Shown here: piece by piece, positions 15,327-45,356 of the stretch | How positions within the stretch are numbered: the first letter of the stretch is position 1 | Layout: every line of letters starts with the position of its first letter | Source: a virus | Length of the DNA stretch: 64,000 nt | IMG/VR virus record: IMGVR_UViG_3300031787_007614 | Span: 300,405 to 364,404 of that record | Reading direction: 5' to 3' (one strand) | Notes under the pieces: generated by a model | Told to the model about the DNA's origin: nothing | Database searches by the model: none | Seen by the model: the letters and a program-made list of their open reading frames with translations, nothing else | Position numbers and translations under genes: made by a program

Positions 15327-16408
15327 AACGAGTGGTACTGGCTGTCGCTGACCCTTGGAACTATTTTAATCAATGGCCAGGATACAGCTTGTCCATTATC
15401 AATCCAGACGGCGATGCCAACCGCAAACAATATCTCTTAGACAATTTAGACTGGAGTTTGTTGGTCACATCTGATGGCGTACAACATCGTGATGGTGGTG
15501 ATTACGGCGACGAGAAAATGGTAATGTACACTTCAGGCACAACCGGAGATTCAAAGTTTTTTAGTTATTCCACCACTCAGGTACAGCATGTTGTTGATAA
15601 CATAATTGCCAGCTACGAATTAACAGCCAATGATCGATTTTTGAGCGTTATGCCACTGTGGCATGGCCACGGACATATCCTAAACTATGTTGTTGCAACC
15701 GCTGGCATGCAAGTACACCATGTTCGACCGCCTGACTTGAAAAAACAAATAGAATTCAGCCCAACCTGGGTGTCTGCAATTCCTGACATACTTAGAGTAA
15801 TGTCACGCACTCAAAAATTCCCCGACTTGCGATTTGCTAGATCAGCCAGTGTTGCATTGCCCAACCAAGTGTTTGATGATTTAAAAAGATCATTTAATAC
15901 CCCAATCATTGAATCGTTTGGCATGTCTGAAGCCTGTAGCCATTGCTTTACCAATCCGTTGTATGGTGAACAACGTATAGGAACCATTGGACTTCCTGAC
16001 GGGATTGACGCAGACATACGCAACGGTAGCTTATGGCTGCGCGGCCCACAATGTCACACATCAGATTGGTTTGATACTGAAGACTTGGCTGAGCAAGACT
16101 CTGCAGGATACTACAAAATACTAGGACGTAGATCAGATCGACTGACCTTGCATGGCATCAAACTAAATCCATTGAGCATAGAAAATCAACTGTACAATCA
16201 CATACCACAACTGGATGAAGTTGTGGTGTTTGGCGAAAACAAAATGATGTGTGTGTACACCGGCAATGTTTTGCCCAATCAAGTGCGACAAGCATTAACT
16301 GATATTTCCACACACTGTAACCCCAAGTTCCTTAAACAAGTTGAAAGCATACCTAAAAATACCGCAGGCAAAGTATCACGTTCACTGCTAAAGGAAATTT
16401 ACAATTGA
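15323..16408 (+). CDS. Compact AMP-forming acyl/aryl ligase (ANL superfamily)
   Basis: Adenylate-forming enzyme of 361 residues. Key motifs are present in order: 'YTSGTTGDSK' (A3 phosphate loop, ~residue 69), 'PLWHGHGH', 'ESFGMSEA' (A5), 'WFDTEDLAEQD' (A7), 'ILGRRSDRL' (A8) and 'NTAGKVSR' with the catalytic lysine (A10). Family members usually have about 500 residues; here most of the N-terminal subdomain before A3 is missing, a natural compact form also seen in some biosynthetic clusters. It would activate a carboxylic acid as an adenylate, possibly then an acyl thioester. No carrier protein is seen nearby. It overlaps both neighbours by 4 bp. Confidence 0.85.
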   Translation: MKRVVLAVADPWNYFNQWPGYSLSIINPDGDANRKQYLLDNLDWSLLVTSDGVQHRDGGDYGDEKMVMYTSGTTGDSKFFSYSTTQVQHVVDNIIASYELTANDRFLSVMPLWHGHGHILNYVVATAGMQVHHVRPPDLKKQIEFSPTWVSAIPDILRVMSRTQKFPDLRFARSASVALPNQVFDDLKRSFNTPIIESFGMSEACSHCFTNPLYGEQRIGTIGLPDGIDADIRNGSLWLRGPQCHTSDWFDTEDLAEQDSAGYYKILGRRSDRLTLHGIKLNPLSIENQLYNHIPQLDEVVVFGENKMMCVYTGNVLPNQVRQALTDISTHCNPKFLKQVESIPKNTAGKVSRSLLKEIYN

Positions 16409-17115
16409 ATATCCTAGTGAACGGACCCAGTGTGTCACGAGGCCCTGGCAGTTGGCCGTACTTGTTGCAAGAGCACTACAACGCCGACCTTGTTAATTTG
16501 AGTCAGGCAGGGGCTGGAAATACTTACATTCATGAAACTACCGTGGCTGAACTTGCACAACGATCTTATGATCTAGTGGCAATCATGTGGGGAGATCAAC
16601 AACGACTAGATATCAAAGTAAAAAACATTGATTATTTTCATGATACTATCTACACCAGCAAATTCCAAAAGGCCATGAATGATTGGCCAGAGAAGATAGT
16701 AGAGCCTGTTAACGACCAAGACTATGTGCAAGACAACTGGGTGTTTGGTTGCGGATACATCAATACCAAAGATCCTTGTTTGGTAGAACTGTTTGATTCG
16801 TATTACCAGCATACTGACATTGACTCTCGATACTTTAGCAGTATTATCAAAATGATCAGTCTCCAGGGCGTACTTAAAAATCTTGGAATAAAATATGTAT
16901 TTTGCGGCACCCGCACATTGCCTTTGTTAAAACGCTACGAACATTTGTACAATCTATTAGATTGGAATTGTATAATCAATGATTTTACTCCCCATCACGT
17001 GGCCTACCGGGACAATTGCTGGGAAGCTGATCAACTACACCCTGGCCCGGCCGCACACCAAGAATTTGCCAAACACATGATTGCTCAACTTCAACAAAGA
17101 CATATACTTACATAA
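16405..17115 (+). CDS. SGNH/GDSL-family hydrolase or acyltransferase
   Basis: The N-terminus 'ILVNGPSVSRGPGSWP' replaces the usual GDS block I motif with a GPS form. An Asn/Gly-rich block ('QAGAGNTYIHE') follows near residue 35, and the C-terminal 'DQLHPGPAAH' supplies the Asp-x-x-His pair. This is the SGNH esterase/acetyltransferase layout at 236 residues, normal for a single-domain enzyme. The start is TTG overlapping the previous stop (TTGA), and its stop overlaps the next gene. It is the first of three SGNH-like genes in the island. It may remove or transfer acyl groups on a glycan; substrate unknown. Confidence 0.7.
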   Translation: MNILVNGPSVSRGPGSWPYLLQEHYNADLVNLSQAGAGNTYIHETTVAELAQRSYDLVAIMWGDQQRLDIKVKNIDYFHDTIYTSKFQKAMNDWPEKIVEPVNDQDYVQDNWVFGCGYINTKDPCLVELFDSYYQHTDIDSRYFSSIIKMISLQGVLKNLGIKYVFCGTRTLPLLKRYEHLYNLLDWNCIINDFTPHHVAYRDNCWEADQLHPGPAAHQEFAKHMIAQLQQRHILT

Positions 17116-18101
17116 TGATTAATATTCCGCACATTGATCTTAAGATTTGGAATCCTGAATTCAAAACAATTGAAATTGTGTCAGAGTTACAACAGCACGG
17201 CAATGTGTCTATTGGCATTGACGGCGAAGGCAGTGATTGTGAAACGCTGGGCTTGTATAAACTATTGGATGCAGTATGCAGTAACTTAGGTTACACACCC
17301 GGCGCCATAAGCATACACACTTGCAATCAATTAGAACACCATTCTTGCTATAAAATTATTAAACATCCGCCGTTGTACATACCCAGCGGGCAACAGTTTG
17401 CATCTCAGCACACGCTACCTGAGAAACGCTGGGACGCAATCAAGCACTTTGGAATTTTTGTTGGACGTAGCAGTTGGCAACGATTGTGGATGGCCAGTCA
17501 CACATGGAGCAACTACGGCGACATAACCTCCATGACTTATCATTACGATAGTAGCGTCGATTATCATCGCACACACTTGAGCTTTGATGAACTAGCATAT
17601 CAAATAGGATTGCCTAATGCAGTTAACACAGCAGGCAAGTTCATGCAACAATTGCCCATCAAGAACGAATCTGTTGATAGCTATCCTATACTAACTCCAG
17701 CACACTTTGCTATTGCTAAACTGTATCCTGATTTTTTTGTGGAAATAGTATGCGAAACTTTTCTAAGCGGCAACAGCTTTTACCCCACGGAAAAAACCTG
17801 GAGACCGTTTATATGTCGTACACCGTTTTTGACTCTGGGCCCACGTGGCTTTTTGGCAAACTTACACAAGCTGGGATTTAGAACATTCTCTCAGTGGTGG
17901 GACGAAAGCTACGACCAAGATGCTGACCTAGACAATGGGCGAATAGCCATCAAGTGTATACAACAAACACAACAACGCTTGAGCATACTCAGCACACAGG
18001 AGCTTGAAGGCATGTACATTGACATGAAAGATACTTTAGAACATAACTATCAACACTTCATGCAGTTAAAAGAAACGGACTTTGTAAAAATATGGCCATG
18101 A
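17115..18101 (+). CDS. TEK/DESYD-family glycosyltransferase-like protein (copy 1)
   Basis: This 328-residue protein is one of five paralogues in the window that share a C-terminal signature: a conserved Glu (here 'VCETFLSG'), then 'PTEKTWRPF', 'TPFLTLGPRGFL', a GF-RTF turn and 'WDESYDQ'. The order Glu-TEK-x-x-(K/R)-P-PF resembles the nucleotide-sugar-binding C-terminal half of GT-B enzymes such as the GT10 fucosyltransferases, but the relation is distant and inferred. The N-terminal half is unlike known families to my eye. No signal peptide or membrane segment is seen. It overlaps a radical SAM gene downstream. Confidence 0.6.
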   Translation: MINIPHIDLKIWNPEFKTIEIVSELQQHGNVSIGIDGEGSDCETLGLYKLLDAVCSNLGYTPGAISIHTCNQLEHHSCYKIIKHPPLYIPSGQQFASQHTLPEKRWDAIKHFGIFVGRSSWQRLWMASHTWSNYGDITSMTYHYDSSVDYHRTHLSFDELAYQIGLPNAVNTAGKFMQQLPIKNESVDSYPILTPAHFAIAKLYPDFFVEIVCETFLSGNSFYPTEKTWRPFICRTPFLTLGPRGFLANLHKLGFRTFSQWWDESYDQDADLDNGRIAIKCIQQTQQRLSILSTQELEGMYIDMKDTLEHNYQHFMQLKETDFVKIWP

Positions 18102-19498
18102 ACAAAGGCGATGAAACAGTAGACAACAAGAGTCGGTTCCTAAACTCTGCTGAAAAAATGGCAGAGAACCTAGGCCCTGCGCTGTGCCTGGCCAAATGGA
18201 AGCAAGTGAGCCTGCACCTGCCCACAGGACTTAACAATAGTTGTTACCATCCGCCATTGCACAAGATACCCGTAGAAAACTTAGCTACCAATCCAGGATC
18301 CTTGCACAACACACCGCACAAGAAAGCGCAACGTGTGATGATGCTACGCAACGAAAAGCCCGCAGAGTGCGAGTACTGCTGGAACATGGAAGCGGAAAAC
18401 AAACTGAGTGACAGGCACTATCGTTCAGGCGAGCCTTGGGCCGCAGTGGACTTTGAAAAGATCCAGAACTCAACAGGAGAAGAAAGTGACGTTATCCCTA
18501 GCTACGTTGAGGTTAATTTTAATAATGTTTGTAATCTCATGTGCAGTTATTGCAGTCCGCAATTCTCTAGCAGCTGGCAACAAGAAGTGGATCGATCAGG
18601 CGGCTACCCTACTGCTCGTGTTCACAATGATCCTGGGCATTTTGGTGGAGATCGCCGGGTTATACCAGTTAGAGAGCATAACCCTTATGTAGACGCATTC
18701 TGGGAGTGGTGGCCTACTTTGTACCCAGAACTGGTGCATTTCCGCATGACTGGGGGCGAACCCTTGTTAGACAAGAACACATACAGAGTGTTTGATCATG
18801 TGTTGGAGAACCCATCTGCCAAACTACATTTGAATGTAACATCAAACTTCTCAGTGGATGAAAAGTCATGGCAGAAGTACTTGGGGTATGTCAAGCAGTT
18901 GTGCGACGGGCGCATAGAACACTTCATGCAGTACGTGAGTTTAGACGGCTGGGGCTCACAAGCAGAATACATGCGTCACGGTATGGACTTCAATTTACTA
19001 TGGGACAGGGTAAATCAATTTCTAACAGAAGTACCCAGCTACAACAGTCTAACGTTTATTGTGACCATGAACAATCTATCAGTAACCAGCTTGGAAAACC
19101 TGTTTGCTGGCATTCTAGGTCTGCGTAAAACCTATAGCAAAACCTATCAACGTGTGTGGTTTGATACACCTGTACTACGCGAACCGGCTTGGCAGAGTTT
19201 GCAAATACTGCCAGAAAGCTATGCTGAACGACTGGAATATCTCTGGGCGTGGATGATACGTTGGACAGAAACTGCCGAAGATCCATTCCACGGATTCAAA
19301 GACTACGAACTTGCTAGACTGGACAGAGACATTGCATGGATGCGAGCAGGCCAAGGACAAGATCATTCCGCAGCAAAGGCAGACTTTTATAGATTCTTTC
19401 GAGAACACGATCGCCGCAGAGGCACTGACTTTTTAAAGACCTTTCCAGAAATGAAAAGCTGGTGGGCAGAATGTGCATATCATGCTAGGAACACATAA
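18092..19498 (+). CDS. Radical SAM enzyme with N-terminal twitch domain (copy 1)
   Basis: The radical SAM motif CxxxCxxC is 'CNLMCSYC' at about residue 148, followed by 'TGGEPLL', which contacts SAM. Upstream, cysteines at ~32 and ~51 ('SCYHPP') plus 'CEYCW' near residue 98 form the N-terminal auxiliary iron-sulfur (twitch) arrangement seen in the N-twitch radical SAM family. The C-terminal 150 residues end in a conserved 'RRGTDFLKTFPEM' type tail shared with copy 2. It starts at ATG 18092 and overlaps the preceding gene by 10 bp. These enzymes typically modify peptides or sugars by radical chemistry; the substrate is unknown. Confidence 0.9.
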   Translation: MAMNKGDETVDNKSRFLNSAEKMAENLGPALCLAKWKQVSLHLPTGLNNSCYHPPLHKIPVENLATNPGSLHNTPHKKAQRVMMLRNEKPAECEYCWNMEAENKLSDRHYRSGEPWAAVDFEKIQNSTGEESDVIPSYVEVNFNNVCNLMCSYCSPQFSSSWQQEVDRSGGYPTARVHNDPGHFGGDRRVIPVREHNPYVDAFWEWWPTLYPELVHFRMTGGEPLLDKNTYRVFDHVLENPSAKLHLNVTSNFSVDEKSWQKYLGYVKQLCDGRIEHFMQYVSLDGWGSQAEYMRHGMDFNLLWDRVNQFLTEVPSYNSLTFIVTMNNLSVTSLENLFAGILGLRKTYSKTYQRVWFDTPVLREPAWQSLQILPESYAERLEYLWAWMIRWTETAEDPFHGFKDYELARLDRDIAWMRAGQGQDHSAAKADFYRFFREHDRRRGTDFLKTFPEMKSWWAECAYHARNT

Positions 19499-20585
19499 GC
19501 TCATAGTAGACGAATGGGCCGAAGTCTGGGACTTGCTCAAGCCATATGCTGACAGCAGTTTTTGGCAGTTGCCCAGCTTGGATCCTGCCAATGTGTATGT
19601 TGTTGGCCGTGTGATATTGAAAGACAACTGGCAGACAATAACTGACTGGGCCACTCAGCACCCTGGACGCATTGTGTTCTCCAACCCTGCAGAAGGATCA
19701 GAAACCATACTGCTACAGCTCAAGCGACTGCGCATTGCTGACTTGGTCCAAGACGGGCGCATAGGACTGTTGACGTCTGGGGATTTAGAACCAGGGTGGA
19801 GCTATTGTAAAACAGACTGTTACTTTTCAAACATAGTGGAATACACAGAAAACAAATCGGCGCAACTACAAGCTGACATGGATTCAAAAGCGCATCGCCC
19901 ATATGATTTTCTTTTTTTAAATGGCCGCCTGCGCCCACATCGCAAAGCACTGATAGACGGCCTGCGTGAAAATCAGCTGTTGGATCATGCATTATGGACC
20001 AACCTGGGCAGTTCTGTTGAAATGGCATTTACTTCTGCACTGCAAACCAATCAGCTTGAGCCTATTAGACTGTTGCCCCCAGAATATGAAATTGAACGTG
20101 CTGTACCCAACATGGAATCAGCGTATGCACACAGTTTTTGCAAGCATCATTTGTTTGGCAATACCTGGGGCGATGCCATTGTTAATCCTGCTTGCTACAC
20201 AAGCACATGGTTCTCAGTGGTAACAGAAACCATATTTGATTACCCGCACACATTTAGAACAGAAAAGATATGGAAGCCCATATTAATGGCACACCCATTT
20301 GTGGCAGCTGCCAACAGGGGTTACTTGCGAGACTTGCGCAACGCAGGATTCCGCACGTTCCACAACTACATCGACGAATCCTACGACCAAATTGATTGTC
20401 CAAGCAAGCGAATAGATAGTATAATAGCAACAATTGGCGAGATCTGTCAGAACGGTGCTGCTGAATTCTGGACAGCCGCCCAGGATATCTGTAAATATAA
20501 TCAACAGCACCTAGTGGAGCACAATCAATTGGAACGTGCCCAACTCCCCATCAATTTAGAAAAGTATTTAGATGAACGATCTTGA
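19473..20585 (+). CDS. TEK/DESYD-family glycosyltransferase-like protein (copy 2)
   Basis: This 370-residue paralogue of the 17115-18101 product has the signature 'VTETIFDYPH', 'RTEKIWKPI', 'HPFVAAANRGYL', 'GFRTFHNY' and 'DESYDQ'. It begins at GTG 19473 or at the ATG three codons later (19482); both overlap the 3' end of the radical SAM gene. It ends inside the next radical SAM gene's start region (14 bp overlap). Alternation of this family with radical SAM genes suggests that each pair handles one step, or one residue, of the same product. Catalytic residues cannot be assigned from sequence alone. Confidence 0.6.
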   Translation: MHIMLGTHKLIVDEWAEVWDLLKPYADSSFWQLPSLDPANVYVVGRVILKDNWQTITDWATQHPGRIVFSNPAEGSETILLQLKRLRIADLVQDGRIGLLTSGDLEPGWSYCKTDCYFSNIVEYTENKSAQLQADMDSKAHRPYDFLFLNGRLRPHRKALIDGLRENQLLDHALWTNLGSSVEMAFTSALQTNQLEPIRLLPPEYEIERAVPNMESAYAHSFCKHHLFGNTWGDAIVNPACYTSTWFSVVTETIFDYPHTFRTEKIWKPILMAHPFVAAANRGYLRDLRNAGFRTFHNYIDESYDQIDCPSKRIDSIIATIGEICQNGAAEFWTAAQDICKYNQQHLVEHNQLERAQLPINLEKYLDERS

Positions 20586-21903
20586 GTTCCGTCAGCAAGT
20601 ATTAGACCCTCTCTCAGCCAGCTTTTGTGCGGCAAAATGGTATAACGCAACCATTTGGTTAGGAAGTGGACAGACCACAAGTTGTCATCACCCGCCAGCT
20701 CATTTGATCGACAAAGATAAAGTCAGCATCAACCCTAGGCTACTGCACAATACTGATCAAAAGAAGGCAGATCGCCAACAAATGATCAACGGGGAGCGTC
20801 CCCCTGGCTGTGAGTACTGTTGGAAAATAGAAGACATGGGTCGCAATGCCATTTCAGACCGTGTGTATAAGAGTAAGATATATCCCATAGAGGCATTACA
20901 TGAAGCTAGAAATACACCATACACTGAAGACGTCAACCTCCGTACACTTGAGATCGCTTTTGATCGCACTTGTCAGTTTGCTTGTAGCTATTGTAATCCA
21001 GCTTTCAGTTCAACATGGGTTAAAGACATCCGACGCAACGGAGCTTACCAGAACTTGGTCAGTGATGGTCGCAACCATTTTACCCATGATCATGCTAACG
21101 CACAACTTTGGGATTATGGAGAACACAATCCTTACATTGATGCATTTTTTAAGTGGTGGGAGTCGGATCTGCATCGCACACTGCAAGAGCTCCGTATCAC
21201 AGGAGGAGAGCCCCTCATGTCTGGTCACACATGGAAGCTCATTGACTGGTTTCGAACAAATTCAGGCAAGAGTTCAACACGCCTGGCTATCAACAGTAAC
21301 CTAGGCACAGACGTAGACATTGACCGCTTGCTAGATGCAACGCAAAACATGGCAATTGACATATACACTTCAAACGAAGCTGTGGGTGTGCAAGCAGAGT
21401 ACATACGCGACGGGTTGGTCTGGGCGGACTGGATGAACAATGTCAACCGCTTGTTAAGTTCCAAGCAGTTCCGTAGCATACATGTGATGTGTACCATCAA
21501 TGCCCTGTGCCTAGACAGCTTGGATCAATTGCTAGAGTGCATAGTGAAATGGAAGCTGGAGTATGGGCGTGATGCTATATCATTCACACTAAACATCTTG
21601 CGTTTTCCCAGCTTTCAAAGTCCGTTGATACTGCCTGCGGAGTTGAAAACACACTACAAAACAGTGTTGGAAACTTGGCTCACAAATCACAGCCACAGTG
21701 AATACCTGCACGAACACGAAATCAATCATTTACAAAGATTGATTGATTACCTGGATGTGGTGAAAACACCGCATTCAGACACATTTGAAATGCCCAAGCT
21801 ATTGAATGATTTCAAACAATTCCACACACAGTATGACCAGCGTCGCAACAAAGACTTTGGCACAGCGTTCCCAAATCTGCAGGCCTGGTATAATTCACTA
21901 TAA
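20572..21903 (+). CDS. Radical SAM enzyme with N-terminal twitch domain (copy 2)
   Basis: This 443-residue protein is the closest relative in the window of copy 1. It carries 'FCAAKW' and 'SCHHPP' plus 'CEYCW' in the N-terminal auxiliary cluster, radical SAM 'CQFACSYC' at about residue 133, and 'TGGEPLM'. The C-terminal tail matches copy 1 ('RRNKDFGTAFPNL'). The shared 'AKW...HHPP/YHPP' region suggests both act on similar substrates and arose by duplication. It overlaps the upstream transferase gene by 14 bp. A 10-bp tandem repeat containing its stop codon separates it from copy 3. Confidence 0.9.
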   Translation: MNDLEFRQQVLDPLSASFCAAKWYNATIWLGSGQTTSCHHPPAHLIDKDKVSINPRLLHNTDQKKADRQQMINGERPPGCEYCWKIEDMGRNAISDRVYKSKIYPIEALHEARNTPYTEDVNLRTLEIAFDRTCQFACSYCNPAFSSTWVKDIRRNGAYQNLVSDGRNHFTHDHANAQLWDYGEHNPYIDAFFKWWESDLHRTLQELRITGGEPLMSGHTWKLIDWFRTNSGKSSTRLAINSNLGTDVDIDRLLDATQNMAIDIYTSNEAVGVQAEYIRDGLVWADWMNNVNRLLSSKQFRSIHVMCTINALCLDSLDQLLECIVKWKLEYGRDAISFTLNILRFPSFQSPLILPAELKTHYKTVLETWLTNHSHSEYLHEHEINHLQRLIDYLDVVKTPHSDTFEMPKLLNDFKQFHTQYDQRRNKDFGTAFPNLQAWYNSL

Positions 21904-21914
21904 TTCACTATAAT
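21891..21914 (+). repeat. 10-bp tandem repeat with TATAAT boxes between two radical SAM genes
   Basis: TAATTCACTA is repeated twice, followed by TAAT and the ATG at 21913. This puts TATAAT at 21889, 21899 and 21909, ten bases apart. The stop codon of the previous gene lies inside. No good -35 element is seen 16-18 bp upstream, so it is more likely slippage than a set of promoters. Confidence 0.6.
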
Positions 21915-23172
21915 GTCATATAATTACAACTCTACAGATCTAGTAAGACCCACAGAATTAACTGAGCGTGAGGAATTCTTACTAAAAGATTCAAAGACAT
22001 TTTGCATTTATCCCTGGATCCATTTGCACGCCTATCCCACAGGCGAGGCATATCCCTGCTGTCATGCTGAAATGAAGCCAGGCATAGTAGGCAACTGTAG
22101 AACAAATACCTTAGAAGAAATATGGCAGGATGCACCCATGCAGAAGCTACGTGCAGACATGCTGAGCGAAACGCCACACGCTGCCTGCACACGTTGTTAT
22201 GAGCAGGAAGAATCAGGATTCTTTTCAGGCCGTAAGAGTGCCAACAAACATCACGGACATCACATAAAGAAGCTGGATCAAAATCCTTTTGAAATGACCT
22301 ACTGGGACATTCGTTTCTCAAACTTGTGCAATCTAAAATGCCGTAGCTGCGGATACATATTCAGCTCACAATGGTATCAGGATCAAGCCAAACTTGCTGG
22401 CGGCGACTGGAAAGCCCGCAACACAGTGCTAAACTATGCAGGGCGTACTGAAACTGACATGTGGGAACAATTAAAGCCTCATTTGGACTATGTGGAACAG
22501 ATCTACTTTGCTGGCGGTGAACCCTTGCTTATGGCGGAACACTACAATATTCTAGACGAGCTGGTGCGAAGAAAACGCTTTGACGTTAGACTCATATACA
22601 ACACCAACTTCACACACACGGATCTCAAGGGTCGTTCAGTATTTGAATACTGGCGCCAGTTCGATTCAGTTGCTGTGGGTGCCAGCCTGGATGCGTCGGG
22701 CGCACGTGGGGAATACATTAGAAAAGGCACAGACTGGGCCGTAGTAGAACAGAACAGACGTGATATGTTGCGTGTGTGCCCTGAAGTGGATTTTTACATT
22801 TCACCTACCTTGAGCATAATGAATGCCTGGCACCTGCCTGATTTCCACCGTGACTGGGTGGAAAAAGGCCTGATCCGCGCACAGGATTTAAATATAAATA
22901 TCCTACAAGATCCTGCGCACTATAGAATAGACATTGCCACAGCCGAATACAAACACTCACTCACAGCACTGTATCAAAATCATATCCATTGGCTTAAAGG
23001 TCAGGACCCGCTAAATCGTGCCACACAAGGCTTTGAATCAGCCATTACCTTTATGATGGCCACAGACAACACACACTTGATAGATACATTCTGGCGCAAA
23101 ACAAATGAACTAGATTCAATAAGAAATGAATCAATATTGGATATAATTCCAGAATTGGCGGCACTAAAATGA
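21913..23172 (+). CDS. Radical SAM enzyme with N-terminal twitch domain (copy 3)
   Basis: This 419-residue protein has an N-terminal twitch cluster in the form 'FCIYPWIHLHA' ... 'PCCHAEMK' ... 'CTRCYEQE', radical SAM 'CNLKCRSC' at about residue 139, and 'AGGEPLL'. The CxxPW...PCC pattern is shared with copies 4-6 and differs from copies 1-2, so the operon contains two subfamilies. A late 'SLDASGARGEYIRKG' segment resembles the strand-5/6 region of SPASM-type enzymes. Its stop overlaps the next start by 4 bp. A peptide or glycan substrate is possible; none is identified. Confidence 0.9.
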   Translation: MSYNYNSTDLVRPTELTEREEFLLKDSKTFCIYPWIHLHAYPTGEAYPCCHAEMKPGIVGNCRTNTLEEIWQDAPMQKLRADMLSETPHAACTRCYEQEESGFFSGRKSANKHHGHHIKKLDQNPFEMTYWDIRFSNLCNLKCRSCGYIFSSQWYQDQAKLAGGDWKARNTVLNYAGRTETDMWEQLKPHLDYVEQIYFAGGEPLLMAEHYNILDELVRRKRFDVRLIYNTNFTHTDLKGRSVFEYWRQFDSVAVGASLDASGARGEYIRKGTDWAVVEQNRRDMLRVCPEVDFYISPTLSIMNAWHLPDFHRDWVEKGLIRAQDLNINILQDPAHYRIDIATAEYKHSLTALYQNHIHWLKGQDPLNRATQGFESAITFMMATDNTHLIDTFWRKTNELDSIRNESILDIIPELAALK

Positions 23173-24386
23173 ATATTCCACACGATCAATTTTGCGTATT
23201 GCCCTGGGTGAGTTTAGAAGCCTCTCCCATTGGCACTGTACGCCCATGTTGTCTGGCAGATGATGAACTGACGGATGACTCTGGCACAAAGTTCTCGCTA
23301 TTGAATGCTAACTTTGCTGACATACAAAACTCACGTGCAATGACACGCCTGCGTGAACAGTTTCTTGCAGGCGAAAAGCCACAGACCTGCCGCAAGTGCT
23401 GGATGGAAGAACGTGCTGGCCGCACATCAAAACGCATGCACACCTTGGACAGAATGAAACACATGGGCATATCAGGAGAATGGACCACTGACGCCAAGCC
23501 GCTGATGTTCCTGGATTTGAAGCTGGGCAACATCTGCAATTTAAAATGTCGTATATGCGGATCATGGTCATCAAGCCAATTTGCCACAGAAGAATTAAAT
23601 GACATGCATCCAGATGACGATAAGAAAAAGACATTTCCCTATCAGATGCTGCGAGCAGGTGCGTGGCCCAGGGAAAATCAATCATTTTGGACAGAAATTG
23701 ATGCCTGTTTAAATGACATACGCTACATTGAATTTACAGGTGGCGAGCCATTCATGATTGATCAGCACTTTGACATGTTGCAGGGCATTGTGGATCGCGG
23801 AATTGCACATCAAGTGGAAATACACTACAACACAAATGGCACACAATGGCCTGCTCGCGGCCCGGACATCTGGCGCCATTTTAAAACAGTAGAAGTGGCG
23901 TTCTCAATAGATGATGTGGGTGAACGCTTTGAATATCAACGCACCAATGCAGACTGGGCATTGGTGCTGGACACAATCACAAGTTTTCAATATCTTAGAG
24001 ATCAACTGCCCAACCTGCGTTTACAATGCTGTAGTACCGTGAATGTGTTTAATGTGCGGTACATTGATCAACTAGCACACTGGATAGCACTGCAACGCTT
24101 TGACTTTGTGTACTGGAACATGATGCATGATGCCTGGTACTTTTCAATTGCCACACTGCCTGACACAGCCAAAGCTGCTGTCACAGAACACCTACGTTCA
24201 GCAGATGTGCCCGCACAATATCGTGAGGAGTTTGATAGAATCACAGACTTTATGAATGGGGGTGCGTCAACGGACGGCTTTATGTTGCGAATGAAAGTAC
24301 GTGATTTAGATCGCAAAAGAAAACAAAATTTACGTGATGTAGCGCCAGAATTTGCTGAAATAATTGGGTATGACTATGACCAGTAA
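23169..24386 (+). CDS. Radical SAM enzyme with N-terminal twitch domain (copy 4)
   Basis: The 405 residues contain 'FCVLPWVSLEA', 'RPCCLADDE' and 'CRKCWMEE' (N-terminal auxiliary cluster), 'CNLKCRIC' at about residue 122 for the SAM-bound cluster, and 'TGGEPFM'. It has the same subfamily layout as copies 3, 5 and 6. A conserved 'EFTGGEPF ... HYNTNGT' core matches the TIM-barrel strands. It starts by ATGA overlap with copy 3 and runs about 20 bp into the next transferase-like gene. Function is inferred only as radical-based modification. Confidence 0.9.
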   Translation: MNIPHDQFCVLPWVSLEASPIGTVRPCCLADDELTDDSGTKFSLLNANFADIQNSRAMTRLREQFLAGEKPQTCRKCWMEERAGRTSKRMHTLDRMKHMGISGEWTTDAKPLMFLDLKLGNICNLKCRICGSWSSSQFATEELNDMHPDDDKKKTFPYQMLRAGAWPRENQSFWTEIDACLNDIRYIEFTGGEPFMIDQHFDMLQGIVDRGIAHQVEIHYNTNGTQWPARGPDIWRHFKTVEVAFSIDDVGERFEYQRTNADWALVLDTITSFQYLRDQLPNLRLQCCSTVNVFNVRYIDQLAHWIALQRFDFVYWNMMHDAWYFSIATLPDTAKAAVTEHLRSADVPAQYREEFDRITDFMNGGASTDGFMLRMKVRDLDRKRKQNLRDVAPEFAEIIGYDYDQ

Positions 24387-25383
24387 TCTGGTATTGATGC
24401 ACGACACCAGACTGGTTCCTGCCAATTTGTCAAGGCATTTTCCTGTGGACTATGAGTTTTTTGATCCTGGCAAAACATATCCCAGCAACACAGTTTTTGT
24501 TTATGATCATTATCTCAGTGAAATTGCAGTCAAACAGCATCTTGACAGTCATCTGCAAGCTGGCTACAGAGTAATATACGACAACAAAAATGAACATTGG
24601 TTTACCACTGACCAATGGTGGATTGTTGAGCTGCTACAAAAATATCCACAACAACACCTTTTGTTTAGTTTGGGATCACAGCCTGGCGCATTGCCTGGAC
24701 TCAGAGTGCAGGCTGTGCCTGCTTGGATATGGCTGCGTTGCCGAGACTATTGGGAAAAATTGAACTATCACAATATTGCATATACTCCAACTGCACGGTA
24801 TAAAACATTGTGTATGATCAACTACACACGACCCTGGCGAGACCTGGTGTGGCAAGCATTGAATCCCATGGAGGCAGATGTGATGCGTAGTTATTTGTCC
24901 CAGGGGATCAGCATGCCCGACGATGTTACAGGTGATGGACACTTGTGGCAGGTAAATCCACGTTGGTTTCATATTTCTGCAATGAGCTTGGTGTGCGAAA
25001 GTTCAATTGGTGCTGTTTCTGGAGAAATTTCAGTCACTGCACCGTCAGGTGTGTTTGTGAGCGAAAAAAGTCTAAAGCCCATGGCCATGCAACATCCATT
25101 TATTGTGGTAGCAACCCCGGGTACCCTAGCAGAGATACAGAGTTTTGGATTTGAAACATTCCCAGAGTTATGGGACGAAAGCTACGATTCAATTGTGGAC
25201 TTTGGTCAGCGATTAAACGTCATTATGCAACAAGTGCAACAGTTTGATACAGCACAATTAAACCAGCTGGTAGTGCAACAAAAACTCCAACACAATCAGC
25301 ACAGGATTTTTGATCCTGCGGTAACACAGCAATTGCTACAGCAACAGGTGTTGGATCCCATATTAGAATTTTTAAATGAATAA
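24370..25383 (+). CDS. TEK/DESYD-family glycosyltransferase-like protein (copy 3)
   Basis: This is a third paralogue of the family: 'SLVCESS' (conserved Glu), 'VSEKSLKPMAM' (SEK variant of TEK), 'HPFIVVATPGTL', 'GFETFPEL' and 'WDESYDS'. ATG codons at 24370 and 24376 are both possible, and a TTG lies at 24364; none has a strong ribosome site, and all overlap the upstream gene. The N-terminal half is short and poorly conserved with the other copies. It lies between radical SAM copies 4 and 5, repeating the alternating layout of the operon. Confidence 0.6.
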   Translation: MTMTSNLVLMHDTRLVPANLSRHFPVDYEFFDPGKTYPSNTVFVYDHYLSEIAVKQHLDSHLQAGYRVIYDNKNEHWFTTDQWWIVELLQKYPQQHLLFSLGSQPGALPGLRVQAVPAWIWLRCRDYWEKLNYHNIAYTPTARYKTLCMINYTRPWRDLVWQALNPMEADVMRSYLSQGISMPDDVTGDGHLWQVNPRWFHISAMSLVCESSIGAVSGEISVTAPSGVFVSEKSLKPMAMQHPFIVVATPGTLAEIQSFGFETFPELWDESYDSIVDFGQRLNVIMQQVQQFDTAQLNQLVVQQKLQHNQHRIFDPAVTQQLLQQQVLDPILEFLNE

Positions 25384-26665
25384 ACCTGATACCATGTGCC
25401 TGGCACCTTGGGTGCATACCTATCTAAGCCCGCAAACTGAACGGCGCATGTGCTGTGCGTCACGCGAGCCTGCACAGAATTTTCGGCAGTACATAGACAC
25501 TGAGTCAGGTACTGGTCAGTATATTCCTGTCACACTTGAAGAACATTGGAATTCAAATCACATGCGATCAGTGCGTCGCAGAATGATGGCCGGAGAAACT
25601 TTACCTGAATGCGAAGTATGCAATGACCGACTCCTTAACACTAGCGTTTACCGCACCTACTTCGATCATTTATTTCAGCACAAACTGCCAGAAGTATACG
25701 CTAACACACAGCCCGATGGCACTACGACTATGGAACCTGTTTCATGGGATTATAGGTTCTCAAACTTATGTAACTTCAAATGCAGAACCTGCGGAGATAT
25801 GCTTTCAAGTGCCTGGGAGAGTGAACAAAAACAGAACAACATGGTCAACTGGGCTGATCCTAAAAACAATTGGATGCGAGACAGTATACGTGACAGCATC
25901 TCCCAATTTCAGGATAGTCAAATTGAAGCCGAATTTGCTGCCGCCGTTGAACAACATCGTGTAGAAGAAATCTACTGGGTGGGCGGAGAGCCGCTAATGT
26001 ACGAACAGCATTGGCGCCACATGAAAAGAATTGTTGAACTAGGAGATGGACCACGTGTTTATGCTAGATATAATACTAATCTCAGCCGTGTGCGTTACGG
26101 CGGTGTGGATCTATTTGATGATATCCTGGCGCACATTCGCGATTGGCAAATATGTGCTTCCCTGGATGGAACTGAGCAGATCGGGGAATATATTCGTACA
26201 GGATTGGATTATGCACAGTTCTGTCGTAATTTTGAACACGGACTCAAATACGCTACCAACCCTAGACAGATGCGTCTTGACTTTACCCTCACACTGCCCG
26301 GCATGTTCGAGACTGGCGCAATGGAAAAGTTATCACAGACGTATGGGGTACAATTGTTAGCCAAAGTGATATTCAGCTTTAGTCCAGACATTGTTATGAG
26401 TCCACTTGCGCTGCCCAGACACTTGTTGGATCCATGGGTTGACGAACTAGCAGGCCGCTCCGCAGGTGACATGCGTGATGTACTGCTACAATTAAAGAAC
26501 CGTCCATGCTTTGAGGAACAATGGCCGGATACATATCGCGCAGGACTTGCAAAAGGCAAAGCTCGTGTGTTACAATTAGAAAGCATACGCACACAGAAGA
26601 TTACTATGGCAGAAATACTTGCTCAAAGACCAGCAGTGCTAGAATGGTGGAATAAAATTGCTTGA
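25376..26665 (+). CDS. Radical SAM enzyme with N-terminal twitch domain (copy 5)
   Basis: This 429-residue protein has 'MCLAPWVHTYL', 'RRMCCASREP' and 'CEVCNDR' as the auxiliary-cluster cysteines, 'CNFKCRTC' at about residue 132 for the radical SAM cluster, and 'VGGEPLM'. It overlaps the upstream transferase-like gene by 8 bp and the next gene by 8 bp. It belongs to the same subfamily as copies 3 and 4. It is the last radical SAM gene of the operon. The downstream unknown gene at 26658 is coupled to it and could be its partner or substrate-binding subunit. Confidence 0.9.
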   Translation: MNKPDTMCLAPWVHTYLSPQTERRMCCASREPAQNFRQYIDTESGTGQYIPVTLEEHWNSNHMRSVRRRMMAGETLPECEVCNDRLLNTSVYRTYFDHLFQHKLPEVYANTQPDGTTTMEPVSWDYRFSNLCNFKCRTCGDMLSSAWESEQKQNNMVNWADPKNNWMRDSIRDSISQFQDSQIEAEFAAAVEQHRVEEIYWVGGEPLMYEQHWRHMKRIVELGDGPRVYARYNTNLSRVRYGGVDLFDDILAHIRDWQICASLDGTEQIGEYIRTGLDYAQFCRNFEHGLKYATNPRQMRLDFTLTLPGMFETGAMEKLSQTYGVQLLAKVIFSFSPDIVMSPLALPRHLLDPWVDELAGRSAGDMRDVLLQLKNRPCFEEQWPDTYRAGLAKGKARVLQLESIRTQKITMAEILAQRPAVLEWWNKIA

Positions 26666-27719
26666 TCACATTGAAATAGACCTACGCGGACAAAACAGCC
26701 TACTAACTGTGCATATAGATGTGGCGGACAACACACTAAGTCGCAAATGGCTAACCGCGCTAAATGACATCATTAGAACTGATCTTCATTTGGAAAAGAA
26801 TTACTGTTGGATGGGATGGACTGAAAGTGAACGAAATGCACAATACCTTTGTGAGCAAATTAATGCTAGTATTGATCACATCAATCGAAGTGGTATTGGC
26901 TATTGTATTGATTGTGATGCTTATACTGTAGAGAATACCATTGAGCCAGGAATCATTGGCACCAATCTAATCATCGGTGGCGTGGTGCATGAAAAAATGA
27001 ACAATCTACACAGGTATTTTGAAGACCTACAAGGGTGGTCAGGTGGCATTTCAAATTATTATACTCGTGCAGATCCTGCTACACGCTGGCACATACGTCA
27101 ACTAAATCTCCTGTGTCATGAATATGAAAGTCTTGTATTGAGCATGCGCAAGGCTGTGCATGCCCCTGAATGGCGCAGACCCTCACAGTTGATGTGTTGG
27201 CTTAATGCACCGCGTTTTGCACTAGAACCCGCGGACTATGAATTGTTTGGCGTAGAAACCATCAACAGAACTCTAGGCGGTGTTTATTTGGGTGTAAATA
27301 AAGCAGTTGGCAAACATCACTGGGAGGTGTTCAATGATGAAGGTAGGGATTCGCGTGTTGGCGAGCTTGTTACTACAGGACTGCGTGCTCAAACTGAAGC
27401 CGCTGGCGACTTTGATATCGAATGGGCCCGTGACCCAGGAGCATATCACTGGCAAATCAAAAAGTTACAAGAATTCCGCGCCTGGCTATTGGACAATGGG
27501 TTTGATCCAGAGGACAAAAGTCTCACCATTGGTCACCCAAAGGTGGCACAAGTTGACGTGATGCGAACATTTGGAACAACGGATTATGAAAAGATTTGGG
27601 CGCAGTTGGCTCAACATCTTGATGTGTTGAGCATACGTACCGGGTGGGGCGAAGCTACATACAACTATCGCTGGAGCGATCCAGACTATCATGAACAGCA
27701 AATAAGGAGATTGAAATGA
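26658..27719 (+). CDS. Unknown protein coupled to radical SAM gene, 353 aa
   Basis: Starts at TTG 26658, overlapping the stop of radical SAM copy 5 by 8 bp. The 353 residues are soluble and rich in Trp, His and Tyr. Notable segments are 'GIGYCIDCDAY', 'GVVHEKMNNLHRYFEDLQGW', 'LGGVYLGVNKAVGKHHWEVF' and 'TIGHPKVAQVDVMRTFG'. No standard catalytic signature is evident to me. The clustered His, Glu and Asp residues could bind a metal, but this is a guess. Its stop overlaps the ATG of a 33-residue gene. Its position at the end of the radical SAM run suggests a shared pathway. Confidence 0.75.
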   Translation: MLDHIEIDLRGQNSLLTVHIDVADNTLSRKWLTALNDIIRTDLHLEKNYCWMGWTESERNAQYLCEQINASIDHINRSGIGYCIDCDAYTVENTIEPGIIGTNLIIGGVVHEKMNNLHRYFEDLQGWSGGISNYYTRADPATRWHIRQLNLLCHEYESLVLSMRKAVHAPEWRRPSQLMCWLNAPRFALEPADYELFGVETINRTLGGVYLGVNKAVGKHHWEVFNDEGRDSRVGELVTTGLRAQTEAAGDFDIEWARDPGAYHWQIKKLQEFRAWLLDNGFDPEDKSLTIGHPKVAQVDVMRTFGTTDYEKIWAQLAQHLDVLSIRTGWGEATYNYRWSDPDYHEQQIRRLK

Positions 27720-27817
27720 ATTGGATTAGACAAATTTGGGATAGAATTACACTAGAGTATCGTTATCGTAAAAAACTAAAAGAGCTACGCAAAAGAGATC
27801 CTTTTATCTACAAATGA
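27716..27817 (+). CDS. Small basic helical protein, 33 aa
   Basis: This short frame is well supported: AAGGAGA sits six to seven bases before the ATG, its ATG overlaps the TGA of the upstream gene, and its TGA overlaps the ATG of the next gene (27814). The product is strongly basic and helical ('RYRKKLKELRKRDPFIYK'). Very similar short proteins ending in 'RDPFIYK' occur, as far as I recall, in other T4-like phages. Function unknown; a membrane-peripheral or protein-binding helix is possible. Confidence 0.75.
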   Translation: MNWIRQIWDRITLEYRYRKKLKELRKRDPFIYK

Positions 27818-28461
27818 AAAATCAGTTACTCACAATAGGTGATAGCTTTACACATGGTGACGAATTGTCAGATGTGTATCAAGCCTGGCCCTATCGTCTG
27901 TCAGACAAACTAGGATACGAAGTCCACAATCTTGGACAGTCAGGGTGCAGTAACGCTAGTATTTTGCGTAGAACATTAGAAGAACTTGCGACCAATCATT
28001 ATGATTTAGTTATTATAGGGTGGACTTATCCGGGTAGAATTGAATGGAAAGATGACATTGGCATAGCGTATGATTTATGGCCAGGTGTGCCCAACGATAC
28101 TAAATTTTTTAAAGATCATCCTTGGAGAGTTGATTTTTTAAACTTTATAAGTCAACATCACAATTCTGCTTATCTATACCAACAGTATCTGATACAAACA
28201 ATTTTGTTGCAATCGTTTTGCCAAGTCAACAGCATTGATTATAGAATGTTAGATGTACAATGGCACAATTACTACAGAAAAGTTGGATCAGAAATGCATG
28301 ATAAGTTAGAAGCAAAAATAGATACAACAAAATTTATAGGTTGGCAAAAGTTTGGTATGAGAGAACTAGTGGCTGATTTACCAAAAGGTCCTCAAAATCA
28401 TCCGCTAGAACAAGGACATGAGAGAATAGCAAATGAAATCGCAAAACATATTGGGAATTAG
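27814..28461 (+). CDS. SGNH/GDSL-family hydrolase (copy 2)
   Basis: The 215-residue protein begins with a canonical block I 'TIGDSFTHGDE' (nucleophile Ser ~10). Block II is 'NLGQSGCSNASILRR' and the catalytic His comes in 'QNHPLEQGHERIA' near the C-terminus. The Asp normally two positions before that His is replaced by Gln, so the triad may lack its acid or take it from elsewhere. It is coupled to the 33-residue gene upstream and overlaps the carbamoyltransferase gene downstream by 29 bp. It may deacylate or acylate a glycan. Confidence 0.8.
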   Translation: MKNQLLTIGDSFTHGDELSDVYQAWPYRLSDKLGYEVHNLGQSGCSNASILRRTLEELATNHYDLVIIGWTYPGRIEWKDDIGIAYDLWPGVPNDTKFFKDHPWRVDFLNFISQHHNSAYLYQQYLIQTILLQSFCQVNSIDYRMLDVQWHNYYRKVGSEMHDKLEAKIDTTKFIGWQKFGMRELVADLPKGPQNHPLEQGHERIANEIAKHIGN

Positions 28462-29923
28462 TGCAGGCTTTCATGACGCTGCCTTGACCTTGTTAGACCA
28501 GCACGGCAAGATTGTGTTTGCCGGCCATTCAGAACGTTACAGCAAGCAAAAAAATGATGCTGATATTTCATCAGCCATGCTTGACGAAATTGACATGAGT
28601 CAGGTAGGTACCATTGCGTACTACGAACGTCCGTGGATGAAACAACTGCGTCAATGGTATGCAGGACAGGGTATTGAGTGGAACAAAGTAACCACAAGAC
28701 AAATACTAGAGCAACAGCTTGGCGCTGACCAAGTCAATGGCAAACGCATTAAAAACTACAATCATCATTTGTGTCATGCTGCTGCTGGTTTTCAAACAAG
28801 CCCTTATCCCATAGCCACAGTGGTTGTGATAGATGCTGTGGGCGAATGGGACACAGTGTCAATCTGGGGAGCAATGTATGATAAAAATCTTAAAGCAACG
28901 TATACTCGACTTTGGTCGCAGAGTTATCCACATTCAATTGGATTATTCTACAGTGCTATTACTAAGCGCATTGGCCTACACCCACTAGACGAAGAATACA
29001 TCACCATGGGCATGGCCGGATGGGGAACACCTCGATGGACCGAAGTCATGCGTGATGTACTCGTGGACAATCCAGAACAACTGCGGTTTAGATCAAACTT
29101 ACACACAGGACTTGATTCAAGTTTTTTAGATTGTGCAACCAATGAAGATATTGCTGCTTCGGCACAACAACTCACAGAGTATCTAATACACCAAGTTATG
29201 ACCAAGGCCAAAAACTTTGGGTGGAGTGACAACTTGGTTTACATGGGCGGAGTGGCGCTAAACTGTTTGGCCAATAGGAGGTTAGGTGAATACTTTGATA
29301 ACATATGGATTATGCCTTGTCCTGGTGATGCTGGCAGTAGCCTGGGCGCCGCCGCTCTTGCACACGGCGGTTGTGTTCAGTGGACTAGTGCTAGTCTTGG
29401 CCATAATATACCTGGTGATTACCCTGTTTACAATGCCATGGCTGCTCTTCTCACTGATCGTATTGTGGGTGTGGCATCGGGCCGAGCAGAATTCGGACCC
29501 AGAGCCCTAGGCAATAGATCATTGCTAGCAGACCCCCGTGGCGCTGACATAAAAGACCAAGTGAATTCGATCAAACGCAGACAAAAATTTAGACCTTTTG
29601 CCCCAGTTATTCTGGAGGAGTTGGCTGACGATTACTTTGATATGCCTCGTTGCTGGAGTGACAGTAGGTATATGCAAATTGTCGCTCGTTGCCGGCATCC
29701 TGACTTATTTCCCGCTGTTATTCATGTTGACGGCACTAGTCGTGTACAGACTGTGCCCCGCGACGGATCAGGCATAAGAAAGCTGTTGGAAGCATGGTAC
29801 GCCGAGACAGGTTGCCCTATGTTGCTTAATACAAGTTTAAACATACGTGGGGAGCCAATGGTAAACGACAGAGCAGACGCAGACCGATTTGAAACACTGT
29901 ATGGTGTAAAGGTATGTTCATGA
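28433..29923 (+). CDS. Carbamoyltransferase, NodU/CmcH/TobZ family
   Basis: This 496-residue protein has the two-domain layout of O-carbamoyltransferases. The N-terminal Kae1/YrdC-like part starts 'ILGISAGFHDAALTLL' and has the metal-site His motif 'HHLCHAAAGF' (~residue 110). 'MGGVALNCLAN' precedes the C-terminal domain, which has 'AEFGPRALGNRSLLADPR' (~352) and 'NTSLNIRGEPMV' near the end. These enzymes use carbamoyl phosphate and ATP to carbamoylate sugar hydroxyls. Length is slightly below the usual 530-600. A diverged copy of its last 27 codons lies downstream of the next gene. Confidence 0.93.
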   Translation: MKSQNILGISAGFHDAALTLLDQHGKIVFAGHSERYSKQKNDADISSAMLDEIDMSQVGTIAYYERPWMKQLRQWYAGQGIEWNKVTTRQILEQQLGADQVNGKRIKNYNHHLCHAAAGFQTSPYPIATVVVIDAVGEWDTVSIWGAMYDKNLKATYTRLWSQSYPHSIGLFYSAITKRIGLHPLDEEYITMGMAGWGTPRWTEVMRDVLVDNPEQLRFRSNLHTGLDSSFLDCATNEDIAASAQQLTEYLIHQVMTKAKNFGWSDNLVYMGGVALNCLANRRLGEYFDNIWIMPCPGDAGSSLGAAALAHGGCVQWTSASLGHNIPGDYPVYNAMAALLTDRIVGVASGRAEFGPRALGNRSLLADPRGADIKDQVNSIKRRQKFRPFAPVILEELADDYFDMPRCWSDSRYMQIVARCRHPDLFPAVIHVDGTSRVQTVPRDGSGIRKLLEAWYAETGCPMLLNTSLNIRGEPMVNDRADADRFETLYGVKVCS

Positions 29924-45302: not shown

Positions 45303-45327
45303 GGGCTGTTCCTTAGTTGATGTGTAT

Positions 45328-45356
45328 ATTATAGCAAAAGATGATTTATTCGTCAA
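45328..45356 (-). promoter_or_regulatory. Sigma70-like promoter TTGACG-17-TATAAT
   Basis: -35 TTGACG (45356-45351), a 17-bp spacer beginning AATAAATC and ending TTTTGC, and -10 TATAAT (45333-45328), so TGC precedes the -10 (extended -10). It drives the VWA gene at 45302 with a 5' leader of about 20 bases. Confidence 0.75.

Follow-up and report, generated by a model that had tools for sequence, protein, structure and literature searches.

A conserved set of five N-twitch radical SAM enzymes behind the tail-fibre genes of a T4-like phage probably adds an unusual decoration to virus particle, peptide or host surface

Introduction

What might a virus make with five radical S-adenosylmethionine (SAM) enzymes encoded close together behind its tail-fibre genes? 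The question is raised by the IMG/VR virus record IMGVR_UViG_3300031787_007614 (364,404 bp), whose final 64 kb were analysed and are here called the window. Within it, five radical SAM enzymes of the N-twitch kind are interleaved with three genes of a family termed TEK/DESYD, and the run ends in a protein of unknown kind (26658; genes are named by their start position in the window). A preliminary description of the sequence had regarded this cassette as a coupled amplification forming a dedicated pathway, perhaps for the modification of a glycan or a virion peptide, with no described system of the same composition. The record derives from a T4-like phage (Gp23 capsid PF07068, 325 bits), and among five proteins taken from the 20 kb preceding the window are a baseplate wedge (phrog_10646, E 5.5e-276), a baseplate hub and virion proteins, while one gave no match. 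In this and other giant phages of lakes the cassette sits directly behind tail-fibre genes. Our analysis suggests that it probably serves to place an unusual decoration on the virus particle, on a peptide or on the host surface.

Results

Layout of the cassette

All nine open reading frames (ORFs) of the interleaved run were confirmed on the + strand, and a small tenth one follows directly (loci refers to the 52 full-flank loci described below):

17115 to 18101, +: TEK/DESYD protein, variable (TEK profile E 6.6e-18; 22 of 52 loci, including distant paralogues)
18092 to 19498, +: core radical SAM 1, AKW..HPP type (NF033640 315 bits; 52 of 52 loci)
19473 to 20585, +: TEK/DESYD protein with predicted GT-B fold (AF2 pLDDT 93.5, pTM 0.90; VIA Z 13.1; 48 of 52 loci)
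20572 to 21903, +: core radical SAM 2, AKW..HPP type (NF033640 297 bits; 52 of 52 loci)
21913 to 23172, +: core radical SAM 3, PCC type (NF033640 387 bits; the query that selected the loci)
23169 to 24386, +: core radical SAM 4, PCC type (NF033640 329 bits; 52 of 52 loci)
24364 to 25383, +: TEK/DESYD protein, variable (TEK profile E 1.2e-20; 21 of 52 loci)
25376 to 26665, +: core radical SAM 5, PCC type (NF033640 281 bits; 52 of 52 loci)
26658 to 27719, +: conserved protein of unknown kind (52 of 52 loci; AF2 pLDDT 86.6; VIA Z 8.3, borderline)
27716 to 27817, +: ORF of 33 amino acids (aa) ending ELRKRDPFIYK, which could be a modified peptide or a small partner (52 of 52 loci)

As noted earlier, nearly all genes overlap. 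Between 16405 and 27719 eight junctions overlap by 1, 10, 26, 14, 4, 17-23, 8 and 8 bp, the range reflecting the ATG or TTG start of 24370/24364, and the sole gap measures 9 bp (21903/21913). On the + strand from 7733 to 30606 the largest gap is at most 43 bp, counting a 49-aa ORF (7744) and the 33-aa ORF (27716), and because all gaps are this small the cassette looks like an extension of a tail-fibre operon. Terminator-like sites occurred at the level of shuffled sequence (19 versus 18.5). A hydrophobic segment was absent from 32 of 33 selected window proteins, only 14406 having a KD19 peak of at least 1.6.

Five old radical SAM subfamilies

The curated cut-off of NCBIfam NF033640 (N-twitch radical SAM) is 170 bits, and all five cassette enzymes score above it (281-387 bits). 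Pfam Radical_SAM matched each of the five below that family's own cut-off, and Pfam SPASM matched 21913 and 23169 over its cut-off and 25376 below it. The record of the window holds nine NF033640 genes over the cut-off and four weaker matches. The two motif types pointed out previously, AKW..HPP and PCC, are evident in the alignment, and 18092 and 20572 form together with their relatives a separate clade of 19 rows (SH-aLRT 100) in a tree of 89 rows that was built by a quick method and has long branches. In this tree each radical SAM enzyme of the window groups with its freshwater and marine orthologues and with one sequence from L242, a contig of a Bacteriovoracaceae metagenome-assembled genome (MAG), with SH-aLRT values of 98 (18092), 100 (20572), 98 (21913), 100 (23169) and 100 (25376); the 21913 clade comprises 15 rows, including six from unplaced MAGs. 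By this tree the five enzymes represent distinct subfamilies of old standing, which either remained together or moved jointly; a recent tandem amplification in the phage is rejected by the tree, and the earlier idea of a coupled amplification finds no support.

The CxxxCxxC motif is invariant in all five orthologue sets (n=57-69, members at least 45% identical to the window), as are the cysteines of the N-terminal twitch, except for 63 of 64 at Cys31 of 21913. Median dN/dS values of 0.07-0.15 (NG86, pairs with dS of 0.2-1.5) were obtained for 12 orthologue sets, all of which are under strong purifying selection. The dN/dS values together with the invariant cysteines rule out decaying genes.

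Conservation in lake, marine and bacterial contigs

Relatives of 21913 are encoded by 232 IMG/VR stretches, of which the best 80 were kept and 52 have full flanks; L009-L011 are near-identical to the window, and others of the 52 share contigs or repeat one another. Locus genes were called at half of the query covered and 45% identity (except 19473 and 26658). The check for co-occurrence in related phages, proposed in the preliminary description, gave the same result throughout: 18092, 20572, 21913, 23169, 25376, 26658 and 28433 follow in this order on one strand in 52 of 52 loci, and an order of nine genes, with 13481 and 19473 also in place, was found in 46 of them. This synteny rules out coincidental neighbours and speaks for a dedicated multi-gene pathway, as had been supposed. 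Median identity in the relatives was 73-85% for the radical SAM enzymes, 67% for 26658 and 46% for 19473; the genes from 14406 to 17115 and 24364 are patchy (7-22 of 52 loci).

No near DNA relative of the window was found in 50,697 phage records. All of 14 large records (214-353 kb), which were chosen because they carry the cassette and among which G008 approximates the window's own phage and G004 and G013 look like duplicates, contain NF033640 genes over the cut-off (7-17 matches each), and in each of them, as in the window's genome (G000), 5-7 of the matches listed lie within 12 kb.

A scan of a genome collection yielded 252 relatives, the best 80 of which were kept, giving 78 loci. Three of these contigs (L236, L237, L240) carry homologues of 8524, 10318, 11614, 12398 and 13481 followed by 18092, 20572, 21913, 25376 and 23169, the last two radical SAM genes thus being swapped relative to the window; L238 shows the same order up to its contig end, and L236 continues with 28433, 38246, 34675 and 39273. 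These quintet contigs, which by their record titles we take to be mostly marine, encode radical SAM enzymes 39-61% identical to those of the window, and neither TEK nor 26658 was detected in the four by profile. Together with L289, L295 and L304 they are contigs with homologues of phage tail genes that were binned in bacterial MAGs of a species-representative set. The radical SAM quintet is, judged by these contigs, the core of the cassette, and the TEK proteins and 26658 are missing from the marine quintets.

The bacterial contig L242 encodes eight N-twitch radical SAM enzymes next to ObgE- and Lgt-like neighbours (read from sequence). In the Bdellovibrionota order of G015, N-twitch radical SAM enzymes over the cut-off occurred in 49 of 97 sampled genomes, with up to 12 listed in one genome (at most 16 candidates were scored per genome).

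The 33-aa ORF and 26658

The 33-aa ORF, which is below the 60-aa limit of our ORF listing, overlaps both 26658 and 27814 by 4 bp. Homologues are present not only in the 52 full-flank loci but also in 79 of 79 loci of the series L155-L233 (many contigs shared with the 52-locus set) and in L236 and L240. Across 37 distinct sequences W3, E14, Y17, R18, K20 and the stretch E23-Y32 are invariant. In L236 and L240 the fifth radical SAM gene is followed by a 264-aa gene and, immediately after it, by a 34-aa homologue; the 264-aa gene of L236, the only one compared, is unrelated to 26658 by hhalign. The contigs L237 and L238 stop short of the position in question.

A search with the peptide alone gave 323 relatives, of which the closest 80 were kept. 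A radical SAM gene of more than 100 bits lies upstream on the same strand in 79 of these 80 loci, the other one having just 1.5 kb upstream, and a 26658 homologue ends within 400 bp of the peptide in 52 of the 80. KRDPFIYE is encoded in the DNA of 20 IMG/VR stretches. In 19 of them it closes, or almost closes, a small ORF; these 19 stretches (2.9-14 kb) contain a radical SAM gene of more than 100 bits in 6 cases, a weak one in 4 and none in 9. In L423 (895-1071) and L431 (8577-8753) a 55-aa ORF ending in ELRKRDPFIYE stands directly before an N-twitch radical SAM gene of 301 bits, a second pairing of peptide and radical SAM enzyme in which the N-terminal half of the peptide differs. Small phage ORFs with variable, aromatic-rich N-termini and a constant KRDPFIYE end were seen in L424-L441. 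No homologue of the 33-aa ORF was found in 76 of the 78 genome-collection loci (including L242), in the stretches of phages K566 and S-SCSM2R, in 7 further sampled stretches of the window's genome, or by tblastn in the 50,697 phage records, where the low-complexity filter may hide matches. Its product may serve the radical SAM enzymes as substrate or partner; otherwise it would be a small protein widespread among phages that came to lie at this site.

At least 552 stretches are related to 26658 in IMG/VR, and no tblastn match to it was found in the 50,697 phage records. Its predicted structure is possibly a cyclophilin-like barrel with a helical insert: 22 VIA rows list mostly cyclophilins first (Z up to 8.3, 137 residues, 3.6 A), a level that unrelated models reach as well. 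Foldseek gave nothing under E 0.001 for 26658, the PDB profile search returned nothing meaningful, and neither 26658 nor the TEK/DESYD trio had a Pfam or NCBIfam match.

TEK/DESYD proteins

The three TEK/DESYD genes described for the cassette are indeed there; the window as a whole holds five, and the window's genome twelve (13 places):

32306 to 33496, -: fourth TEK/DESYD protein (TEK profile search)
33480 to 34676, -: fifth TEK/DESYD protein (TEK profile; hhalign E 8.9e-12 to alignment A3, covering about 105 columns at the C-terminus; no tblastn match in the 50,697 phage records)

The AF2 model of 19473, built with 52 orthologues, has by prediction the GT-B glycosyltransferase fold, and the earlier likening of the family to glycosyltransferases is thereby supported for this member, structural unrelatedness not being what was found. 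All 50 rows listed by VIA (Z 11.1-13.1) are, going by title or name, glycosyltransferases, led by glucosyltransferase 8xsh (Z 13.1) and including FutA (Z 12.9 over 265 residues) and T4 beta-glucosyltransferase (Z 12.3). Foldseek gave a single match under E 0.001 (SenB, 5.9e-4), and BFVD 31, of which 22 are proteins of uncultured Caudovirales, mostly uncharacterised; one viral structural match is named UDP-glucose/GDP-mannose dehydrogenase. The remaining TEK/DESYD members appear tied to the GT-B family through C-terminal homology. No Pfam glycosyltransferase family matched any of 52 TEK/DESYD members at E up to 10, and the PDB profile search of 19473 gave nothing meaningful.

Of 38 TEK genes located elsewhere than in the cassette, 14 have a radical SAM gene within 4 kb, compared with 5.5 expected (P 0.001; 2000 random placements in 12 genomes, three near-duplicates being excluded and the 12 kb around the cassette masked; matches listed only, without the weakest radical SAM rows). 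This proximity is modest and compatible with shared glycan islands. The cassette TEK copy is present in 13 of the 14 large records (all except G007), and the cassette TEK matches G009:C1 47467-48585 and G012:C1 208608-209705 contain one in-frame TGA each. On the phage contigs L289, L295 and L304 TEK proteins stand alongside other radical SAM sets. An essential partnership of TEK proteins with the quintet, as the preliminary description implied, is ruled out, since none was found by profile in L236-L238, L240 and L242 and G007 is without the cassette TEK copy.

Genes around the cassette

The genes on either side of the cassette are as follows:

24 to 7733, +: virion-protein frame, 3' part, 2569 codons from the first in-window start codon (phrog_10938 virion structural, E 1.7e-66)
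7744 to 7893, +: 49-aa ORF between the virion gene and 7890 (similar small ORFs in 28 of 59 loci, L089-L147)
7890 to 8495, +: conserved 201-aa protein, phrog_11259 (unknown function)
8524 to 10305, +: tail-fibre-like protein (virion and weak tail-fibre PHROG matches; homologues in L236-L238 and L240)
10318 to 11268, +: Ser/Thr/Ala-rich putative adhesin (composition; 35 of 52 loci, flank-limited)
11312 to 11617, +: small conserved protein (37 of 52 loci)
11614 to 12411, +: putative GT-A-like protein, LDADYVV motif (motif only; related to 12398, hhalign E 1.2e-15)
12398 to 13165, +: putative GT-A-like protein, LEADM motif (phrog_1903, unknown function; related to 11614)
13087 to 13494, +: small conserved protein (46 of 52 loci)
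13481 to 14404, +: conserved protein, LIDGDN motif, putative glycosyltransferase (48 of 52 loci; dN/dS 0.07)
14406 to 15326, +: TctC-type binding protein, variable insert (PF03401; 8 of 52 loci)
15323 to 16408, +: AMP-binding enzyme, variable insert (PF00501 E 4e-23; 11 of 52 loci)
16405 to 17115, +: SGNH-hydrolase-like protein, variable insert (matches below cut-off; 7 of 52 loci)
27814 to 28461, +: SGNH-hydrolase-like protein, DUF6071, variable (PF19547 E 9e-11; 5 of 52 loci)
28433 to 29923, +: O-carbamoyltransferase (Carbam_trans N and C, E 3e-38 and 1e-48; NovN/GdmN/TobZ in PDB; 52 of 52 loci)
31294 to 32334, -: amidinotransferase, AGAT/StrB1 relatives (PDB phmmer E 3.1e-16 to AGAT, E 6.4e-13 to 1bwd)
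34675 to 38274, +: repeat protein with 11 units, each about 65 aa long, resembling 13481 in its C-terminal part
38246 to 39361, -: DegT/DnrJ-type aminotransferase (PF01041 E 5e-53)
39273 to 40268, -: NAD-dependent sugar epimerase (PF01370, phrog_540)
59289 to 60413, +: sixth N-twitch radical SAM enzyme, not in the cassette (NF033640 198 bits)

The virion frame ending at 7733 is open for another 2334 codons upstream in L148, and its product is about 25% identical to virion proteins of jumbo phages over up to 24% of its length. For a membership of 11614, 12398 and 13481 in GT8, Pfam, PDB and hhalign searches gave nothing. The repeat protein 34675 (1199 aa) had no tblastn match in the 50,697 phage records; its repeat of about 65 aa is rich in Trp, Tyr and Pro and is present in 8-14 units across the ten proteins examined, including that of the window. 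With respect to the amidinotransferase, MH319724, MH319720 and MH319727 (Marine virus AG-345-D19, one single-cell virus) contain three amidinotransferase places and a radical SAM relative.

Further along, the window encodes a DUF2201 metallopeptidase/VWA-like protein adjoining an AAA/MoxR-like ATPase (43992-45356 and 45728-46813, both -), an Asp/Asn hydroxylase-like gene (47730) and two TauD-type genes (50673, 52625) within 47730-53494 (-), 25 tRNA genes (55365-61779, -) and a ketoacyl-synthase gene (62901-63872).

A-type Fe-S carriers

Two genes for A-type Fe-S carriers are present in the window's genome (G000:C1 99115-99417 and 168852-169154), and such genes were found in 13 of the 14 related records and in none of eight comparison phages, namely six matches to the virion protein, K566 and S-SCSM2R. 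Since K566 has radical SAM enzymes without a carrier, the link between the two is not strict. A rubrerythrin gene (PF02915; 54825-55262, -) lies in the window and possibly shields Fe-S enzymes against oxygen.

Discussion

As a tentative first choice, the cassette may be a late cytosolic pathway that builds a radical-modified sugar and attaches it to structures of the virion (or the host). The five radical SAM enzymes would carry out successive C-H chemistry on one sugar, which would also be aminated, amidinated or carbamoylated by neighbouring enzymes and finally be attached by the glycosyltransferases; as acceptor, a phage protein made at the same time (tail fibre 8524, adhesin 10318 or the 33-aa peptide) appears likelier than a host surface glycan. 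In favour of a modified sugar, tail-fibre genes, glycosyltransferase-like genes, the quintet, the 33-aa ORF and the O-carbamoyltransferase form one block, with the amidinotransferase, aminotransferase and epimerase close by. The predicted GT-B fold of 19473, the invariant CxxxCxxC cysteines, the purifying selection, the A-type Fe-S carriers, the interleaving of radical SAM and glycosyltransferase genes in Vibrio phage K566, the nearness of TEK to radical SAM genes and the scarcity of hydrophobic segments speak for it as well. Several points weigh against it. We infer the co-transcription of the block; the GT-A readings of 11614, 12398 and 13481 are based on motifs, with nothing found by Pfam, PDB or hhalign; and no substrate of an NF033640 enzyme was recognised in the titles and abstract starts of open-licence PMC papers. 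The five subfamilies also cluster in L242, where TEK proteins are absent and no glycosyltransferase was recognised within the run, so the quintet may have a different target. Neither the 214-kb record G014 nor K566 has the Fe-S carrier, and the authors of PMC7029224 interpret similar loci as modification of the host O-chain. Furthermore, the 33-aa ORF follows the quintet in freshwater as well as marine phages, as expected of a peptide substrate. The finding of this conserved ORF made the peptide half of the earlier "glycan or virion peptide" more serious: it lowered the modified sugar from a fair contender to a tentative choice and raised the modified peptide from improbable to possible, and the two are now close.

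A close second is thus that the radical SAM enzymes modify a peptide, likeliest the product of 27716-27817 (or the repeats of 34675, or adhesin 10318), in the manner of SPASM/twitch maturases, and to which the glycosyltransferases may add sugar, a possibility that we regard as open to considerable doubt. It is suggested by the overlap of the 33-aa ORF with the end of 26658, its homologues in every locus of both series and its invariant C-terminal stretch, by its reappearance behind the quintet in L236 and L240 although the intervening gene of L236 is unrelated to 26658, by the radical SAM gene upstream in 79 of 80 peptide-selected loci, and by the 55-aa ORFs of L423 and L431, which share the C-terminus and abut a radical SAM gene. 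In addition, SPASM/twitch enzymes are best known from peptides. However, the KRDPFIYE motif is often found without a radical SAM gene (over 100 bits in just 6 of 19 stretches, none in 9), so this could be a small protein that phages have more generally; no homologue was found in the K566 stretch, in 76 of 78 genome-collection loci or, by tblastn with a low-complexity filter that may hide matches, in the 50,697 phage records, the conserved end of the peptide is devoid of Cys, and the PDB profile hits of the radical SAM enzymes are mixed (SkfB, viperin, BlsE, MoaA). Pathways for ribosomally synthesized and post-translationally modified peptides likewise place radical SAM enzymes with auxiliary-cluster cysteines beside a small conserved ORF, but here there are five maturases, the conserved part is the C-terminus of the peptide, the motif also occurs away from radical SAM genes and the substrate is putative.

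Remodelling of the host surface, in which precursors of O-antigen/lipopolysaccharide or capsule would be altered during infection and superinfection or re-adsorption blocked, seems unlikely. DegT aminotransferases, epimerases and carbamoyltransferases are usual in O-chain synthesis, and all three are present near the cassette. For clusters with tail fibres, GT8 enzymes and sometimes radical SAM cassettes such host-surface remodelling is proposed in PMC7029224. Against it, no flippase, polymerase or membrane protein, bar one binding protein, was found among the 33 selected window proteins, though lipid-linked intermediates in the cytosol may still be involved. Least probable by far is a pathway for a free metabolite or a modified nucleotide. 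TobZ- and StrB1-type relatives do act on small molecules and T4 beta-glucosyltransferase is among the GT-B neighbours of 19473, but that enzyme ranks level with dozens of other GT-B enzymes and the cassette adjoins tail fibres.

The anatomy of the cassette is new in detail, and the kind of locus is already known, because two precedents exist, PMC7029224 and PMC5332604, contrary to the initial impression of a system without parallel. According to PMC7029224, host-recognition clusters of pelagimyophages contain tail fibres, glycosyltransferases and, in some genomes, radical SAM cassettes. These T4-like phages resemble the present one in having a variable island among structural genes with tail fibres and several glycosyltransferases (GT8 commonest), tail fibres and glycosyltransferases sharing one island here too. 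They differ in that the presence of radical SAM cassettes distinguishes two of their genomes and freshwater pelagimyophages are without them, whereas the present locus has a constant core of five subfamilies, a small conserved ORF and carbamoyl- and amidinotransferases. PF11649 was uninformative as an anchor for a position between VrlC and gp14, since it matched neither here nor in any control. PMC5332604 describes a 183-kb T4-like genome, TARA_ERS488813_N000010, that has 12 radical SAM genes as well as an A-type carrier, and relatives with Fe-S carriers; gene order, subfamilies and glycan context do not feature in that section of the paper. Radical SAM and phages are also mentioned in PMC12390700 and PMC10783043, and no radical SAM was noted in the search listing for PMC12619734 and PMC9723584. 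No description of the five-gene set was found in the titles and abstract starts searched.

Similar neighbourhoods exist in an isolated phage. Vibrio phage K566 (OZ196521) has four N-twitch-type radical SAM enzymes interleaved with two GT8 and one GT4-like enzyme (below cut-off), in the order radical SAM, GT8, radical SAM, radical SAM, GT4-like, with radical SAM and GT8 on the opposite strand; 2 of its 6 NF033640 matches are over the cut-off, identity to the window enzymes is about 21%, and K567 gave tblastn matches too. It differs from the window in that the tree, with long branches, places its enzymes in none of the five subfamilies and its stretch has no TEK protein or 33-aa homologue. For every one of the five phage subfamilies, by comparison, the L242 cluster has a sequence that falls inside it or beside it as sister, but L242 has eight copies, housekeeping neighbours (read from sequence) and no TEK, 26658, 33-aa homologue or tail genes found. 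GT10 fucosyltransferases and other GT-B enzymes share the fold of 19473, at about 10% identity and without a Pfam glycosyltransferase match on its side; GT10 enzymes may have a TEK-like motif.

The pathway would explain why these phages carry Fe-S carriers of their own. NF033640 enzymes are frequent and their chemistry was not found in the literature searched, and the phage block offers candidate substrates, namely the 33-aa peptide, the tail fibres and the sugars handled by neighbouring enzymes. That the quintet is kept together in phages of lakes, in phage contigs of mostly marine origin and in one contig from a bacterium suggests a multi-step reaction, none being assigned in the literature searched. 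A bolder proposal, which we hold to be doubtful, is that the quintet is a portable assembly line common to aquatic phages and predatory Bdellovibrionota. In phages it would modify the 33-aa peptide encoded alongside, possibly capped by the glycosyltransferases. If this is true, what these phages make for their virions or for infected cells would be a peptide altered by radical chemistry, of a kind without counterpart in the literature searched, and small ORFs of other phages that share its C-terminal motif would belong to a wider family of such peptides.

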